A stretch of 64,000 nt of DNA from Candidatus Zhuqueibacterota bacterium (lineage in GTDB: Bacteria > Zhuqueibacterota > Zhuqueibacteria > Oceanimicrobiales > Oceanimicrobiaceae): assembly GCA_029262055.1 (NCBI GenBank), contig JAJDAD010000112.1:62001-126000 (forward strand), written 5' to 3'. Of the stretch, positions 997-20,542 are shown one piece after another (the stretch's first letter is position 1; each line of letters begins with the position of its first letter). The position numbers were made by a program, and so were the translations under genes. The notes beneath the pieces were generated by a model. It was not told the origin of the DNA, did no database searches, and saw only the letters and a program-made list of their open reading frames with translations.

Positions 997-1818
997 TTGT
1001 CTCACACGACCAAAGGCGCGTGTCTTAGTATTGTCCTGTTCTTTTCCTGGACCGCTGCAGCCGTGGGCCAGAATTCGGATATACGCCTACTCGAGGAAAT
1101 CCAAAGCGCCTACGAAGAGCACAACTACGTGGAAGTGGAGATGAAGGCAACGTCGGCGCTCACTGCGTATCAGCGGTTTTCATCCGACCAGTTGGCCGAG
1201 ATTCACAAGATCCTCGGAGTGGTCTATTTTTCCCTCAACAAGCCTGAAGAGTCGGAAGCCCAGTTCACCAGCGCATTAGCCCTGGCGCCAAACTTAAGCC
1301 TTGATCCTGTACAGGTTTCTCCCAAAATCATCAGTTTCTTCGATCAAATCAAACAGAAACGCATGTCATCTCCCGACGATGGCAATGAGCTTCAGGCCCC
1401 ACGATATGTCCTGCTCGCTGACAAGCGACCCGGCGCTACCTTGCGTTCGCTGGTCCTGCCCGGTTGGGGGCAGATCTACAAAGGCGAGAGGAAGAAGGGA
1501 TTTGTGCTCAGCTCTCTTTGGACTGCCGGCGTCACAGCCACTGTGATCGCACACTTCAGCAGAAACAGTTCGGAGGACAGGTATCTCGATGAGACCGATC
1601 CCGCCCGCCTGGAGTCAAGGTTCGATTCATTCAATCGTCTGCACAAGTTGCGTAACGGCCTGGCCGCCTTCTCAGCCGCTGTTTGGATTTATAGCTATTT
1701 TGATACCTTCCTGACGGGGAAGCCCACAGCGCCACGCAAGGAAAGCAGCGCCGCGCTCTATCCTCTTCTCGCCCCCGGATCCGCACAACTGGCTTTTCGA
1801 CTGAGCTTCAGACATTGA
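997..1818 (+). CDS. secreted DUF5683-like protein with TPR-like N-terminal half
   Basis: The 273-residue product starts at TTG, with CAGGAG at 985-990 six bases upstream. It has a signal peptide (about residues 1-24, ending AVGQ). Residues about 30-115 look like TPR helices (YFSLNKPEESEAQFTSALAL). A DUF5683-like segment follows (about 145-245), with the hallmark LPGWGQIYKGERKKG and two hydrophobic helices. Such proteins are common, uncharacterised envelope proteins in FCB bacteria. It lies 95 bp after the PEGA protein on the same strand and may be cotranscribed. Function is not known. Confidence 0.7.
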   Translation: MSHTTKGACLSIVLFFSWTAAAVGQNSDIRLLEEIQSAYEEHNYVEVEMKATSALTAYQRFSSDQLAEIHKILGVVYFSLNKPEESEAQFTSALALAPNLSLDPVQVSPKIISFFDQIKQKRMSSPDDGNELQAPRYVLLADKRPGATLRSLVLPGWGQIYKGERKKGFVLSSLWTAGVTATVIAHFSRNSSEDRYLDETDPARLESRFDSFNRLHKLRNGLAAFSAAVWIYSYFDTFLTGKPTAPRKESSAALYPLLAPGSAQLAFRLSFRH

Positions 1819-2043
1819 CTTTCGGCGGGCAAGGCCTCGCAATGACAGGCATCACAAGATTTTTTTCGGCTGTTGTGACTAGCCTGCATAATTCATGAAT
1901 CAGCGTATTGCGCACAAATCGAGCAAACATCGTCATTCAGGAGGAATCCCTTTTGAACGGGTCCGGTGGCTATCGACGGGCGCAGCTTTTGCCAAAAAAG
2001 ATCCTTCCAGGATGACAAGAAACTAATTTGTGAATAGCGCAGG

Positions 2044-3396
2044 CTAGACCCAGCTAGCCAACCACATTCTCTGATAAAATGAACCGAGCGGAATTGGGTA
2101 AGCAGTCCAGATAGGGTAGAAGTACAGCGCGGTCAGGACAATACAAACCATGGCGACTGCAGCAATTTCTCTTGACCAGCCCTCTCTTTGCCAGAGTTGA
2201 TAAAGGGCGACGGCGAGCAGAATTATGGCGAATGGCAGAGCCCCCATGTAGTGATATGAAAAAGTAGCGCGCGAAATAAGCGCAAACGGCAAGTAGTGAA
2301 AAATGAACGCCGCCAGCGCGAACAGAACGCCAAAATTGCGGCGGAAGATTCCCCCCCAGAACGAGAACATAACGGCCGGTACGGCGAGCCACCAGATTAC
2401 GGGGTTACCGATATTCAGGACGGTTTGCACCGTTTGCTTTGTTTCATCGACCTGCCAGAAATAGTTGACCGGGCGCAGCGATAGGGGCCAGCGCCACCAT
2501 TCGGAGGCGTAGCCGTGCCCTTCTTTCAGGTTGGCGTGGTAGCCGTACATTTGTTGGTGTAGTTCCACAAATTGATATTCCGGGTTTTGCTCTATGTGGA
2601 TCGGAAATGTGACGGCGTAGACAAGAGCCGGCAGCAATGCGCAACAGAAGATTATTGTGAGCGGATGGAGCCGCCCAATTCGTTTCAGGAGCAGGCTTTG
2701 TGGAAGAAAAGCTTTGAGCTTTGTTGTGTGACGGTTGAGCTGCGCCAGAAAGCTGAAAAGCAGGATCATACCCAGACTCGCAACTCCGATCCACTTTACG
2801 GCAATCGCGGCGCCGCTGCATATTCCTGCTCCCGCCAAATAAACCCACGGAGCTTTTTGCGGGCGAGGAGTGCCACTGCGTAGAAACAGATAGTAGGCGG
2901 CGAGGGAGAAAAACACCGCAAAGATGTTGATGAGGCCGGTACGGGACTCAACCAAAAGCAGCCCGTCAAGCGCGGCCAGGAGTCCGGCCAGAAATGCTAT
3001 CTTGCGGTTTTTGAACAGGATTCGGCACAGTGCGTAAATCAGAACGATGGTGCCGATACCGAACAAGGCATTCATGGTGCGATAACCGAGCGGCACGAAG
3101 CCGAAGAATTTTATACCCACGGCAATCAAATATTTTCCAAGCGGCGGGTGGGAGTCGAAAAAAGTCGTGCCGGTCAGATAGTTCTTTGCAAATACCGGAA
3201 AATATATTTCATCAAAAACCAACTCGCCGGGAGTTGCTATCCGCCAGAAGCGAAGAAAGCCAGTGAATCCGACCAGAAATGCCAGTGCAAATCTGTCTGC
3301 CTGCCTGACACACCAGCGCCGGATCGCTTCTAGTGCGACAGGAGCTGCCTCAACTCTCATGATGAGGTTATGCAGCATAGCCAGAGATCGGCTCAT
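2044..3396 (-). CDS. PMT/GT39-family glycosyltransferase
   Basis: This polytopic protein (about 450 aa) resembles dolichyl- or polyprenyl-phosphate mannose:protein mannosyltransferases. The first external loop carries the GT-C acidic pair (VFDEIYF), followed by the PMT signature HPPLGKYLIAVG; about ten or more hydrophobic segments follow. Such enzymes transfer a sugar from a lipid-phosphate donor to proteins or envelope glycans outside the membrane. The start chosen is the ATG at 3396, which overlaps the upstream stop as ATGA and has AGGAGG just upstream. An in-frame ATG at 3441 lies inside the previous gene and is less likely. It is the last gene of the GT2-GtrA-GT-C-PMT operon. The acceptor cannot be told from sequence. 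Confidence 0.85.
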   Translation of the reverse strand: MSRSLAMLHNLIMRVEAAPVALEAIRRWCVRQADRFALAFLVGFTGFLRFWRIATPGELVFDEIYFPVFAKNYLTGTTFFDSHPPLGKYLIAVGIKFFGFVPLGYRTMNALFGIGTIVLIYALCRILFKNRKIAFLAGLLAALDGLLLVESRTGLINIFAVFFSLAAYYLFLRSGTPRPQKAPWVYLAGAGICSGAAIAVKWIGVASLGMILLFSFLAQLNRHTTKLKAFLPQSLLLKRIGRLHPLTIIFCCALLPALVYAVTFPIHIEQNPEYQFVELHQQMYGYHANLKEGHGYASEWWRWPLSLRPVNYFWQVDETKQTVQTVLNIGNPVIWWLAVPAVMFSFWGGIFRRNFGVLFALAAFIFHYLPFALISRATFSYHYMGALPFAIILLAVALYQLWQREGWSREIAAVAMVCIVLTALYFYPIWTAYPIPLGSFYQRMWLASWV

Positions 3397-14423: not shown

Positions 14424-15788
14424 TTAAGCAATGAAAATACCAAGAACGAAAACCACCGTAAATCCGGTTACTGCGATGAGCATTGTCATGACGGTCCATG
14501 AGCGCAGGGTATCTTTTTCGCTTAGGCCGAAGTAACGATTTACTAGCCAAAACCCGGAATCGTTGACATGTGACAGGATGGTGGCGCCGGCAGCAATCGC
14601 AATCGTGACCAAACCCAACGCCGGCGCGCTCAACTCAAGACTGCTGAGAATCGGGGCCATCATCCCGGCGGTTGTAATCATGGAAACAGTTGCAGATCCC
14701 TGAGCTATTCGTACAACTGAAGCTATCAAGAAAGCCAAAAGAATCGGAGGTAGGGAAGAACCTGCCATCAAGGTCGCCAATTCGTCGCCTACGCCGGAAT
14801 CAATCAGTACCTGCTTAAACACGCCGCCGGCGCCGGTCACGAGAATGATAAGCCCGGCCGGTTCCAGCGCTTTGGTAGCGATCTGTCGCACTTCATCCCT
14901 GGAATAGCCCTCTCTGATTCCCAACAAATAGAAAGACAGCAATGTGGTCATGAGCAAAGCCGTAAACGGGTGCCCCAAAAAACTCAGAACGGTGCGAGTG
15001 GTGCTTCCTTCCGGCAGCAAGAGTCCTGAGAACGTATTGAGGAGAATCAAGATCAGGGGCAGAAAAATGATAGCGGCAACCGTGCCGAATCCTGGCAGTT
15101 CCCGCTCTGCCGGTTTGTCTTCCATTTCAATGTAATCCGGAACCGGGACATGAATCCTCTTTGAAATAAATTTTGCAAAAACAGGGCCGGCGATAATCAT
15201 GGCCGGAATCCCTGCCAATGTCCCAAACATGATAACCCAGCCGATGTCTGCGCCCAGCAACTCCGCAACCGCAATCGGACCTGGCGTTGGCGGAATAAAG
15301 CTGTGGGTGACGGCAAGACCGGCAAGCAAAGGAATCCCGTAAAACAGCAGGGAGCGCCCGGTTTTGTACGCCAGGCTGTATACCAGAGGCACGATAATAA
15401 TAAAGCCGACGTCAAAGAAAACAGGTATCGAGACCATGAATCCGGTACTCGCCAATGCCCATTGTGCCCGGTCTTCCCCGAATTTTCCTATTAAAGTGCG
15501 GGCGAGCTGTTCGGCGCCGCCGGAGATTTCAAGCATCCGGCCAAACATGGCGCCCAGAGCGACCACGATTGCCACAAAGCCCAGCGTTCCGCCCATGCCG
15601 TTTTTGATCGACGCCAGAATGGCCTGCAACGGCATTCCGGCAGCAATCCCTGCGAGAAAACTGACAAGAAGCAGCGCAACAAAAGCCTGCAGCTTGGTTC
15701 GAATAACGAGAAAAAGTAAGAGGAGAATCCCCGCTAACGCGACCAGCAGTAATGTGATATCCGTGCCTCCGGTTGGGCTAAAACCCAA
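14424..15788 (-). CDS. GntP-family gluconate:proton symporter
   Basis: About 454 residues with around twelve membrane segments and GntP-family motifs: FVAIVVALGAMFGRMLEISGG, HSFIPPTPGP, and the conserved end HVNDSGFWLVNRYFGLSEKDTL. It imports gluconate or a related sugar acid. The start is unclear. A TTG at 15788 would overlap the lactonase gene by 11 bases. A better ribosome site (GGAGG just after the lactonase stop) is followed seven bases later only by an in-frame ATC at about 15758. It is flanked by gluconolactonase and gluconokinase. Confidence 0.88.
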   Translation of the reverse strand: MGFSPTGGTDITLLLVALAGILLLLFLVIRTKLQAFVALLLVSFLAGIAAGMPLQAILASIKNGMGGTLGFVAIVVALGAMFGRMLEISGGAEQLARTLIGKFGEDRAQWALASTGFMVSIPVFFDVGFIIIVPLVYSLAYKTGRSLLFYGIPLLAGLAVTHSFIPPTPGPIAVAELLGADIGWVIMFGTLAGIPAMIIAGPVFAKFISKRIHVPVPDYIEMEDKPAERELPGFGTVAAIIFLPLILILLNTFSGLLLPEGSTTRTVLSFLGHPFTALLMTTLLSFYLLGIREGYSRDEVRQIATKALEPAGLIILVTGAGGVFKQVLIDSGVGDELATLMAGSSLPPILLAFLIASVVRIAQGSATVSMITTAGMMAPILSSLELSAPALGLVTIAIAAGATILSHVNDSGFWLVNRYFGLSEKDTLRSWTVMTMLIAVTGFTVVFVLGIFIA

Positions 15789-16785
15789 GGCCCGTTGTAT
15801 TGAGCCTGATTCGGTAAAGGTGCGAGTCCGCCGTGATATACAGTACCGAGCCATCATTGCCAAAAGTACAATTGGCAGCAATCTGGCCGGTCTTTATCGT
15901 TCCAAGATGTGTGCCCTCAGGCGTGAATACATGAACGCCGCCCGGGCCGGTGGCAAATATGTTCCCGCCCTGATCCACCGTCATGCCGTCCGGAAGCCCC
16001 TGCTGTCCGGACTTAGCCCATTCGGTCGCATCAAAGAAAACACGGCCGTTTTGAATATTGCCATCGTCCGCAACATCGAAGGCCATCCAGACGGCATGTT
16101 CAGGATCCGAATTTGAGACGTACAGCGTTTCTTCATCCGGGGAGAAGGCGATGCCGTTCGGAAAAGTCATCTCACGGGTTAACAATATCAATTGACCATC
16201 TGTTTTGAAAAGATAAACGCCACTGAAATCCAGCTCCTTGTTCGGGTCCTGATTCAGGCCCTTTAGGCCATAAGGTGGATCCGTAAAGTAAAGATCGCCA
16301 TTGGATTTAAAGACAGCATCGTTCGGGCTATTGAGGCGTTTGCCCCGGTACCTGCTTACCAGGGTCTTCTTGGTGAAGTCCTTACTATTGAGTTTGGACA
16401 TACAACGATTACCATGGTCGCACATGGTCAGTGTGCCCTCTGCATCCAGGAGCAGACCGTTTGAGCCAAGCTCGATCCCGGGCGGGTCGCTGCCGGCATG
16501 ACCAGCCGGTCTCAAGTAGATGCTGAGCCCTTCCTTTTCGTGCCATTTGTAGATGGTATTCCTGGGAATATCGGAGAAAAGCAGGTACTGGCCGTCAGGC
16601 ACCCAGACCGGGCCCTCAGCCCAGTCAAATCCTTCACCAATCTTTTCCAGAACTGCGTCGGACGGTACTATTTTTTCGAGCGCGCTAGCCAACTTATGGA
16701 CGGGCGGTTGTGGCAACACAGGAGAGACAGGCACATGCGAAAAAACCAGTGCCACAAGGACTTTCAGTAGTGTAGTCATTTTCAT
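15778..16785 (-). CDS. secreted SMP-30/gluconolactonase-family protein
   Basis: 335 residues: a signal peptide (about 1-26) and a six-bladed beta-propeller of the SMP-30/gluconolactonase/LRE family, with GEGFDWAEGPVW, YLLFSDIPRNTIYKW, NSPNDAVF.SNGDLYFTDPPYG and FPNGIAFSPDE. It hydrolyses sugar lactones to aldonic acids, probably in the periplasm. As first gene of a minus-strand operon with a gluconate permease and kinase, it likely feeds gluconate into the cell. The ATG at 16785 and a second in-frame ATG at 16779 are both possible starts. Confidence 0.88.
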   Translation of the reverse strand: MKMTTLLKVLVALVFSHVPVSPVLPQPPVHKLASALEKIVPSDAVLEKIGEGFDWAEGPVWVPDGQYLLFSDIPRNTIYKWHEKEGLSIYLRPAGHAGSDPPGIELGSNGLLLDAEGTLTMCDHGNRCMSKLNSKDFTKKTLVSRYRGKRLNSPNDAVFKSNGDLYFTDPPYGLKGLNQDPNKELDFSGVYLFKTDGQLILLTREMTFPNGIAFSPDEETLYVSNSDPEHAVWMAFDVADDGNIQNGRVFFDATEWAKSGQQGLPDGMTVDQGGNIFATGPGGVHVFTPEGTHLGTIKTGQIAANCTFGNDGSVLYITADSHLYRIRLNTTGLGF

Positions 16786-17361
16786 AGTATTCTTTCATTA
16801 GTATCAGCTTGAAAATGTTCGAACCAATTCATCTGGGGTGTGCTGGAGGACGATTTGTTTAGGATAGGGCGCTGCTTCGCCGCGTGGTTCATTGCGGGCC
16901 CCTGATGGCCCGAATGAGTTTCTTTCATATTCAATTACGTGACAAAGACAGCGTCAAATCTACAGGGCTTCCACCTGGTCGCTTGGCCGCTAGCCAGCTG
17001 GTGTCTGCTGAATTTGATACAAAAACTAGGGTATTGCCGTGACAAAAGCAACAGCTTTGTTGCCCTCGGGTAGCAGGAATGTTGCGGTGTATTCGTAGCA
17101 GGTCTTCACTTGGTCCAAAAGCCGGCGTACGCTGCATTAGCCCATCACTTCCGCTCTTCTTCTTTTCCGCGATCACTGCCAAGCAACCGGCTGTTCAAGA
17201 TTTTCGGCTTTCACTTTGACAAATACAGGCGCTTGCTGGTTTGTGCATGGTATCAGTCAATACGCTCAGGTTTTTGTCTTTCCAGGCCATCAGGCGATAT
17301 GGAACTGGCTCTGCGCAGGATTCAGTGTTTGATGGAAGACAGCCTTTCCCGCCTTACCTGC
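16786..17361. other. intergenic stretch without a recognisable gene
   Basis: About 575 bases between the gluconate operon start and the MITE-like element. Short reading frames exist but none has both a ribosome site and protein-like content. The gluconate operon promoter should lie near 16790-16900; no clear match was found. Confidence 0.5.
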
Positions 17362-17370
17362 ATGTTCTTA

Positions 17371-17521
17371 CAGGCTGTTGCAGGTTGCAGATTTGGCACC
17401 CATAAACCCTGACAAGGTTAACAGAAGATAGGGAACCCAGTTATCATAGACCAAAGAGTTAAGGTGAATCCCGATGTTCTTCGTTATTTTTGATCCTGTC
17501 AGGGTTATGTGCAACAGCCTG
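17371..17521. mobile_element. MITE-like element, 151 bp, with 12-bp terminal inverted repeats and 9-bp target duplication
   Basis: The ends are perfect inverted repeats (CAGGCTGTTGCA at 17371-17382; TGCAACAGCCTG at 17510-17521). Complementarity continues inside: CCCTGACA near 17408-17415 pairs with TGTCAGGG near 17497-17504, with an extra insertion of about 17 bases in the left arm. The element is flanked by the direct repeat ATGTTCTTA (17362-17370 and 17522-17530), as left by transposition. It has no coding capacity. It lies downstream of the T9SS protein gene that ends at 17684. Confidence 0.75.
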
Positions 17522-17683
17522 ATGTTCTTAGCGGGAGCCTCCCGTTTGCGTCGACGAGATTCCGGCTCATTACCTGCCCTGCGATCTTTGAGTGCGGTGA
17601 CTACCGTGATGTAAGCGGTCGAGTTTTCATTCAGACACGACTCGCCTAACCGGGCTAATCGGCCGGGCTTCAGCTCCCGGGAA

Positions 17684-20473
17684 CTACCGCAGCAATAACA
17701 TCTTTCGGGTTTGGACCAAGCCTTTCGACTCCAGTCTGTACAGATACACACCACTTGCGACTCGGCGGCCATAAGAGTCTTTGCCGTTCCACGTGACCTC
17801 ATAGAAACCGGCAGGCTTCTCTTCATCCACCAGCCGACGGATTTCCTGCCCCAGCAAGTTCATAACCTTCAGAACGACTTTGGTTTGTTCCGAAAGCTCA
17901 TAACTGATGCGTGTTTCCGGATTGAACGGATTAGGATAGTTTTGTGATAGCTTGAAGGACTCTGGCGTTGCTGTCGTGGTTTCTGATTCTTCTTCGACAT
18001 CAGTGATGAGCGGGTCGCCCGGTTCAACCGTGAATGTGATTGGATTCCCGTTTTCATCATTTGCGGTGACATTCTGCAAATCAAAAGACACCGACGCTCC
18101 CAACGGCGCGGATTCAGAACCTTTCAGGTGTACGCTGGCAACAACCCCAGTGCCCTGAGCGCCTCCCTGGCCGGCTTTTCGACTCATACCGACACTGACG
18201 GTTTTGGTTGCTGTGTTGATATTGGGGAAGAAGATGATGTCTGAACCAAAAAATGGGTCAGCCTCTGCACTCAGGGCTTCGATGGCACCACTATTGTCAG
18301 TATAAACAAGATCAAAGGACAGGCCGAATAACCCGGTAATATCCGTAACCAGAATATCAACTACTATACTGTCCCCTGCCACAGGTTGCACAACAGGTTT
18401 GATTTTAGGCGTTTGGAGAGTGCCGTTCGGGCCATTTTTCCTAAGAAACGTTGACTTAGGAGAAGAGGTGAAGCCTTGCCTCAACGCCAAAGTGGCCGCG
18501 CTGTGAGTTTTCCCAAAATTCAGGCCAATGGGCAGGACATCTTCCGAACCAACGCGACCACTTCCGCCGGCGTCTGCAAAAGTGGCGGCTTCAGGCTCCC
18601 AGCAGACAACGCTTTGCGCGCTCCAAAGCGGGGATGCATTTGGCCGTCTGGGCCCAGTCTTGCCGAAGTGAAGTCCGATTGGCAAAACATCTCTGGCGTC
18701 GACTCTGCCGTCATTGTTTGTATCTCCGGGCCAGACATCGCAGCCGCAAACGATGGCGGTCGTTGCAGCGGAAGGAGACAAATTGATATCACCGCCACTT
18801 GCGTCATTTGCGGTGACATCCGACAACGACCATACAATACTTGTTGGGTCAGGAGTGTCATCGGAAGATTTGAACTCAATCCATATAACAGGCCCGCTGC
18901 CACTTGCGCCGGCGCCACCGGTTTTGGTTACGCCAACACTAATCTTGCCCGCGGCGTCATCAATCTGAGCAAATGGCACGATATTGCTGCCAAGAATATT
19001 ACTGACACTGCCCTGGGGATCCGCAAAGCTGTGGCTTACATAATCAATGTGGGTGGTCGCGTAATTCAAATCGAAACTCACACCGAAAAGGTCTGAAACA
19101 GCGTTCGGATCTCCTACCGCGATCGGCACATAGAATTCCTGTCCGCATGATGCGGTTGCAGGGGCATCCGGCGCAATAGAAGGACCAGAAGTGCCGCCTA
19201 CATTCATTCTTACAGTTAACTCCTGATTGCCGCCATTCGACGTCACAGTGACCTCTCCGGAATGATCCCCGGGACTCAATCCACTCCGGTCGACGTTAAC
19301 CGTGACTGCGGCATTGCCATTGCCACTTGCCGGTGAGACAGTCGTAATCCAGGTTTCATTCTCACTGACACCCCAACTCAAAGTGCCGGAACCGGCATTG
19401 CTGATGTCGAAGCCTTTGCTGGTTGCAGATGCTCCGAAATCCAACGTGGTTGGATTAATTGATAGTACAGCATTTCCGGTTTCCTGTTTTGTTAGAATAA
19501 CATTATCAAAAAAAGCGTCCACGTTGGAAGTGCCGAGGACAAACGAAAAATCGGCATTGCTATCCGTGGGGTCATTCATTTTAAAAGCAAAGCTGAACTT
19601 TTGTTTCGATGCGGTTAATGAAAAAGTCTGGTAACCGCTATAGGCAGTATGGGGAGCTGAAGCTTTTCTAATATAAAAAGCAATCTGTCTTGGACTGGCT
19701 GCATAAGCATCAAATGATACTGAGTATGTTTTGCCATTTTCAATCAATAAATTACTCTGTATTAATTGAATGTGCCAATCGACATTGCTGCCGTTGGTTA
19801 TTGATACAGCATATTCACCGTTTTTCACGCTGCCGCTTGCCGTTGCTTCCGGAGCAACAAAAAGCAACCAGCCGGTGTCGCCGTCGGAGAAATCGCCGTT
19901 TACCAGGATGTTATCGCTGACGCTGCCTACGCTCATATTTATGGTCAGGTCTTGGTTGCCGCCATTAGATGACACGGTGATCCTTCCGGAATAGTCGCTT
20001 GGACTCAATCCGCTTCGGTCGACAGAGACAGTAACTGTAGCATTGCCACTGCCGCTGGCTGGTGAAAGAGAGGTAATCCACGGCTTATCCGGGTTTTCGC
20101 TGACATTCCAGGTCAGGCTGCCGCTGCCGGAGTTGCTGATTTGAAAAGTCAGGCTGGTTAGGCTGGTGCCAAAATCCAAAGTTGCGGGTGATACGGAGAG
20201 GATAGGAGCTTGATTTCCAGGGTCGTCATTAGTGCAAGCGAGGAATCCGGCCTCCAGTCTGAAATTAGCGCTCGCCGCTTTGCCGGCCGGTCCAGCTTGC
20301 CCGCCAGCGGCAAGAAGCCGGAAACCAGACGAGGTCGCCCGGCCACCATAGCCAGTCAGAGAGGCGCATTCGAGTTTAGCCTGCGCGTTAAGCGAGCCAT
20401 TTGCTAGTAGCAAAAGTGCAATTGCAACGCAAATGAGCACGACGTCAGACCATTTATATCTTTTGGACATCAT
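17684..20473 (-). CDS. secreted multidomain T9SS protein (BACON, CBM-like, cohesin-like, dockerin-like)
   Basis: About 929 residues. In order: signal peptide (about 1-31); BACON-like domain (about 89-178); carbohydrate-binding-like beta-sandwich (about 183-325, starting NILVNGDFSDGDTGW); second BACON (about 330-415); cohesin-like domain (about 425-570); dockerin-like pair (DTNNDGRVDARDVLPIGL and a degenerate copy, about 575-655); second cohesin-like domain (about 690-820); and a T9SS sorting domain (NYPNPFNPETRI, LGQEIRRL, GVYLYRLES). The start ATG at 20473 (or 20470) has GAGGAG just upstream. It probably binds glycans at the cell surface; no catalytic domain is seen. It follows the collar-like gene by about 70 bases. 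Confidence 0.85.
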   Translation of the reverse strand: MMSKRYKWSDVVLICVAIALLLLANGSLNAQAKLECASLTGYGGRATSSGFRLLAAGGQAGPAGKAASANFRLEAGFLACTNDDPGNQAPILSVSPATLDFGTSLTSLTFQISNSGSGSLTWNVSENPDKPWITSLSPASGSGNATVTVSVDRSGLSPSDYSGRITVSSNGGNQDLTINMSVGSVSDNILVNGDFSDGDTGWLLFVAPEATASGSVKNGEYAVSITNGSNVDWHIQLIQSNLLIENGKTYSVSFDAYAASPRQIAFYIRKASAPHTAYSGYQTFSLTASKQKFSFAFKMNDPTDSNADFSFVLGTSNVDAFFDNVILTKQETGNAVLSINPTTLDFGASATSKGFDISNAGSGTLSWGVSENETWITTVSPASGNGNAAVTVNVDRSGLSPGDHSGEVTVTSNGGNQELTVRMNVGGTSGPSIAPDAPATASCGQEFYVPIAVGDPNAVSDLFGVSFDLNYATTHIDYVSHSFADPQGSVSNILGSNIVPFAQIDDAAGKISVGVTKTGGAGASGSGPVIWIEFKSSDDTPDPTSIVWSLSDVTANDASGGDINLSPSAATTAIVCGCDVWPGDTNNDGRVDARDVLPIGLHFGKTGPRRPNASPLWSAQSVVCWEPEAATFADAGGSGRVGSEDVLPIGLNFGKTHSAATLALRQGFTSSPKSTFLRKNGPNGTLQTPKIKPVVQPVAGDSIVVDILVTDITGLFGLSFDLVYTDNSGAIEALSAEADPFFGSDIIFFPNINTATKTVSVGMSRKAGQGGAQGTGVVASVHLKGSESAPLGASVSFDLQNVTANDENGNPITFTVEPGDPLITDVEEESETTTATPESFKLSQNYPNPFNPETRISYELSEQTKVVLKVMNLLGQEIRRLVDEEKPAGFYEVTWNGKDSYGRRVASGVYLYRLESKGLVQTRKMLLLR

Positions 20474-20542
20474 TTGTCTCCTCAATCTGTTTGATTCGAA
20501 ACAGGTTACCATAATTCTCACACAAGCCTTCATTCCCGACCT

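Follow-up and report, generated by a model that had tools for sequence, protein, structure and literature searches.

A 151-bp MITE in a Candidatus Zhuqueibacterota genome and its probable IS1182-type insertion into a hairpin loop

Which transposase moved a gene-less element of 151 bp into the genome of a Candidatus Zhuqueibacterota bacterium, and what set the 9-bp repeat that flanks it? The element lies in the stretch of 64,000 nucleotides analysed here (the window). The earlier note had described its 12-bp terminal inverted repeats, internal complementarity and 9-bp flanking duplication, and every coordinate and letter of that description was exact (Table 1). The terminal repeats are complementary at 12/12 positions, and the inner inverted repeat is 82% complementary over 17. 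As a single strand, the element folds with -29.5 kcal/mol; 200 dinucleotide shuffles average -13.85 (SD 2.65), which gives z = -5.9, and none of them folded as well (0/200). Two ORFs of at least 80 aa overlap it (100 aa on the plus strand and 152 aa on the minus strand), both entering from outside, and the nearest long ORFs (15778-16785 and 17684-20533) are both on the minus strand. No Rfam family matches the element. It is short, gene-less and bounded by terminal inverted repeats, as MITEs are, and it has an exact 9-bp target-site duplication, which occurs as an uninterrupted loop in a class relative (G061). A third ATGTTCTT (CCCGATGTTCTTC) is present within the element at 17474-17481, where 11/12 bases are identical to the right junction CCTGATGTTCTT.

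Table 1. Coordinates of the element, its repeats and its putative target in the window.
Feature	Positions	Strand	Remark
Putative target hairpin, left side	17346-17361	.	TTCCCGC at 17346-17352, 4 nt between, CCTGC at 17357-17361
Left target duplication ATGTTCTTA	17362-17370	.	Sequence; 9-mer also forms the loop in uninterrupted G061 hairpins
MITE, 151 bp, no gene	17371-17521	.	Sequence; single copy
Left terminal inverted repeat CAGGCTGTTGCA	17371-17382	+	12-mer shared with multicopy G001 elements
Inner inverted repeat, left arm	17405-17421	+	
Inner inverted repeat, right arm	17490-17506	-	
Right terminal inverted repeat TGCAACAGCCTG	17510-17521	-	
Right target duplication ATGTTCTTA	17522-17530	.	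Sequence
Putative target hairpin, right arm GCGGGA	17531-17536	.	Compare ATTCCCGC-ATGTTCTTA-GCGGGAAT in G061

The search for further copies, which the earlier note had proposed as a check, gave none besides the element itself in its own genome (G000, 5.7 Mb, 114 contigs), but elements with the same ends are present in many copies in Caldithrix sp. N075bin58 (G001, about 360 contigs), which belongs to a different genus. The element thus lacks the multiple host copies usual for a MITE, and the evidence for mobility comes from relatives. The 12-mer end has four sites in the own genome, of which two belong to the element itself, and its reversed control pattern has none; with about 0.7 expected by base count, the remaining two sites count for little as evidence. 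Although GGCTGTTGCA was found 25 times in this genome versus 7 times for its reversed control, these sites were dropped as element ends, because among the fetched stretches only the window's site pairs with a second exact copy. The same genome also contains, at a contig end, an intact IS5-family insertion sequence (L056, 1-1490 on C32) encoding 450 aa, with ends TAGTCGTCCCTGAAAAA.

A DNA search of 60 genomes with the element gave short, weak matches only, of which only L026 in G001 was informative. Based on a pattern search whose gap range left out the window element's own spacing, paired GGCTGTTGCA ends were found in 2/63 class genomes, with nine copies in G001 and one in G053. The 12-mer CAGGCTGTTGCA was counted 25, 13 and 11 times in G001, G053 and G057, respectively (reversed controls: 0, 1 and 0). 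Four of the nine G001 copies (L058, L060, L064 and L066) carry exact 9-bp repeats when CA/TG is assigned to the element; L061 has a repeat matching at 8/9 positions, and the others have a partial repeat or none. Further G001 elements include L135, with an exact 9-bp repeat, and L137 (8/9). In L130, also in G001, the window's 9-mer occurs in reverse complement (TAAGAACAT) on both flanks, with the left copy shifted by two bases. Homology between the interiors of the window element and the G001 copies was ruled out by a shuffle test, in which 953/1000 shuffles were as good, so these elements share their ends and target and have no recent common MITE.

Several other G001 loci were observed. L063 (1499-1637) is flanked by two different 9-mers, GGATTGCAG and TTAAAGATT, each of which is a hairpin loop elsewhere in this genome, which suggests recombination between copies. 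L132 and L133 share the 12-bp end as well and adjoin hairpin arms GTCATTCCCGC-GAAR; L132 has GAAG on both sides. By eye, no DDE transposase was seen near unpaired ends among the ORFs listed (of 288). Three pattern matches in viral sequences had no convincing duplication.

Relatives bear on the nature of the duplicated 9-mer. In G001, a hairpin that is dispersed in the genome, ATTCCNGC-N9-GCNGGAAT, has the duplicated 9-mer as its loop; the repeats correspond to such loops, as in ATTCCGGC-AATCTTTAA-GCCGGAAT, and uninterrupted hairpins with the loops AATCTTTAA and CTGCAATCC are present in the same genome. In G061, GTCATTCCCGC-ATGTTCTTA-GCGGGAATCC occurs uninterrupted in three copies, its loop being exactly the 9-mer of the window. 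Since the G001 repeats are loops and ATGTTCTTA-loop hairpins occur uninterrupted in G061, duplication of a hairpin loop is the simplest account of the window repeat. Together with the multicopy, same-ended G001 elements and their 9-bp duplications, these three loci bear out the earlier note's view of a MITE with a true target duplication that was mobilised from elsewhere.

The evidence for insertion in a hairpin is strong for the G001 copies and several others, but the stem is weak in the window itself. On joining the window's flanks, TCCCGC pairs with GCGGGA; the energy of this fold is unexceptional, being equalled or bettered at 26% of random window sites. Relative to the uninterrupted G061 hairpin, nine additional bases, CTTACCTGC, lie between the TTCCCGC arm and the left repeat (17353-17361) and are perhaps an older event. 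A hairpin-arm motif was found upstream of 31/99 12-mer sites, compared with a background of 1.9%. In two loci, the MITE interiors themselves (L237, 717-844; L222, 4807-4934) hold a hairpin repeat of the ATTCCCGC-N9-GCGGGAAT type.

A survey of insertions was carried out with the pattern AGGCTGTTGCAN{100,130}TGCAACAGCCT over genome contigs, which gave 58 stretches from bacteria and archaea, or 59 insertions with the window. These are not independent genomes, because eight come from two Porphyromonadaceae genomes and six from N075bin58. An exact adjacent repeat of at least 4 bp was present in 22/59 insertions versus 1.4% in a control where flanks of different insertions were paired; the remaining 37 had none. 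The 22 repeats were 4 bp (11 cases), 5 bp (3), 6 bp (3) or 9 bp (5) long. Exact repeats of at least 9 bp, found in 5/59 insertions including the window, never occurred in the mismatched-flank control. Perfect Watson-Crick flanking arms of at least 8 were found in 11/59 insertions versus 0.8% in the control. Judged by fold energy, the signal was modest overall, with only 10 of the 59 sites in the best 5%. In several cases the repeat coincides with the target hairpin's loop: at 9 bases in L225, L236, L254 and L267, at 4 in L237 and at 5 in L256. As a universal rule, this equality was ruled out by L223, in which a 4-bp repeat lies within an 8-nt loop. Among the 59, some have AAAAG/CTTTT-like flanks and may represent terminators or replaced hairpins instead of loop insertions.

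With regard to the parent family, the window element has the IS1182-like end form ([CG]AGGCTGT...). IS1182-family transposases flanked by CAGGCTGTGTGAAAAC ends with 4-bp repeats (GACC, AACC, TGCC) were found in L299, L302, L303, L313 and L319. The IS1182-type transposase of L362 (Rhodococcus plasmid) is bounded by GAGGCTGTTGCAGAAT and GAGGCTGTCGCAGAATC and flanked by TACG on each side. In L330, AGAGGCTGTTGCAAAATG is located about 90 bp from a region matching the IS1182 model, and the same genome holds the MITE L229. The transposase scores of L330 (267) and L362 (265) are slightly below the IS1182 cut-off of 270. Like the window element, the insertion sequences with CAGGCTGTGTGAAAAC/GAGGCTGTTGCAGAAT ends (L299, L302, L303, L319 and L362) start in most cases with CAGGCTGT and have a short direct repeat adjacent to their ends; unlike it, they are about 1.7 kb long with a transposase, have 4-bp repeats and carry inner end letters that are mostly GTGA, not TGCA. 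Among 15 tabulated IS1182-type loci, which were picked for recognisable ends, 10 have a repeat of at least 4 bp, nine being 4 bp and one 8 bp long (L325). The latter (1349-3057, Lutispora) is an IS1182 element in a terminator-like hairpin, with the repeat GCGTAAAC.

An exact matching end beside a transposase was found in only 1/30 fetched loci. According to profile searches, IS1182 transposases above the cut-off are present in 5/63 class genomes and 5/35 MITE-bearing genomes, and absent from G000 and G001; the IS1182 matches in the class carry other ends. No autonomous IS1182 partner with identical ends was found in G000 (114 contigs) or G001 (about 360 contigs), and the G000 protein scoring highest with the IS1182 model reaches 101 bits against the cut-off of 270; it is an IS5 transposase, with 542 bits. 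Viral scans with the L330 and L326 transposases gave nothing; of the five loci that the L324 transposase gave, the three that were checked have no useful ends.

Other origins of the element have to be weighed against this. Derivation from an IS903-group (IS5-family) element with GGCTTTGTTGCACAAA ends, moved by a transposase indifferent to hairpins, appears unlikely, even though it would account for the 9-bp duplication. A published table of IS903-group elements lists GGCTTTGTTGCA ends together with duplications that are mostly of 9 bp (PMC6382973). Compared with the window end, GGC-(TT)-TGTTGCA has two different bases. Among the nearest published counterparts is MITEAba12/ISAba12, which resembles the window element in its length (about 110 bp), a similar end core and 9-bp duplications; it differs in that its ends begin with GGCTTTGTTG and in that its target is described as AT-rich and lacking a motif (PMC6382973). 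The IS903-group end (GGCTTTGTTG...) starts with GG, and the window end is CAGGCTGTTGCA. In G001, CA lies directly beside the duplication, which makes the end there CAGG... and not GG..., a match to the IS1182 CAGGCTGT. Elements with AGGCTGTTGCA ends also give 4- and 5-bp repeats. The IS903 group is less likely because the end includes CA and because of these shorter repeats.

The earlier note had named families such as IS4 or IS1, in which 9-bp duplications do occur, as fitting the duplication, but had not assigned the element. Such an origin now seems very improbable: no resemblance of the ends to those families was seen, and they fit IS1182, whose transposases occur with near-identical ends. 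Only two DDE_Tnp_1 matches were found in the own genome, neither with such ends, and DDE_Tnp_1 loci in six genomes had no CAGGCTGTTGCA ends. Nor did 9 bp hold up as a signature of a family, since same-ended elements also show 4- and 5-bp duplications. Equally remote is the explanation that no transposon is involved and that the structure is a chance or composite hairpin repeat. The single copy in the own genome and an interior unrelated to the relatives' elements would agree with it; against it stand the exact 12-bp ends and exact 9-bp repeats with a known uninterrupted target, as well as the multicopy occurrence of the same ends with duplications in a relative.

Based on the above results, we consider the window element to be probably a non-autonomous MITE of the IS1182 type, which entered a hairpin loop and left this loop duplicated. 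The following pathway can be suggested. An IS1182-family DDE transposase, acting in trans, would recognise and bind the 12-bp CAGGCTGTTGCA ends. Integration would occur at the centre of a short hairpin repeat of the TTCCCGC...GCGGGA type, the hairpin and not its sequence being recognised. The two 3' ends would attack where the 9-nt loop meets the arms on either side, and with strands joined at both edges, gap repair would copy the loop on each side.

Hairpin targets are known from this family. IS1272 and TnSha1 (IS1182 family, staphylococci) insert in hairpins without a primary sequence consensus (PMC5678879, PMC4923244). IS1272 is reported to replace the hairpin (Wan et al. 2017, PMC5678879) and TnSha1 to delete it (Furi et al. 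2016, PMC4923244), in neither case with a target duplication, whereas insertions of the window type appear to keep the arms and duplicate the loop. Pathway c of Wan et al. 2017, a hypothetical one, has the loop duplicated (PMC5678879). Our literature search found neither these end sequences, nor an observed loop-length duplication, nor the combination of IS1182, MITE and hairpin; the papers that matched the end sequences were, judged by title, on unrelated subjects.

The element is a real MITE of an ordinary kind; a moderate interest lies in its target and in the rule by which it was duplicated. The length of a target duplication is normally taken as nearly fixed and set by the transposase. 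In contrast, elements with one kind of end show repeats of 4, 5 or 9 bp here. We suggest, as a tentative reading, that a branch of the IS1182 type may measure its target by structure and join at the loop edges; the duplication would therefore equal the loop, of 4, 5 or 9 bases, with its length set by the hairpin. If this is true, the branch would follow the pathway with loop duplication, which for IS1272 was drawn as no more than a possibility, and the dispersed hairpin repeats across phyla would be its landing pads. If the equality of loop and repeat is causal, structure-directed IS1182 integration would be directly testable and would explain the presence of such elements inside hairpin repeats.
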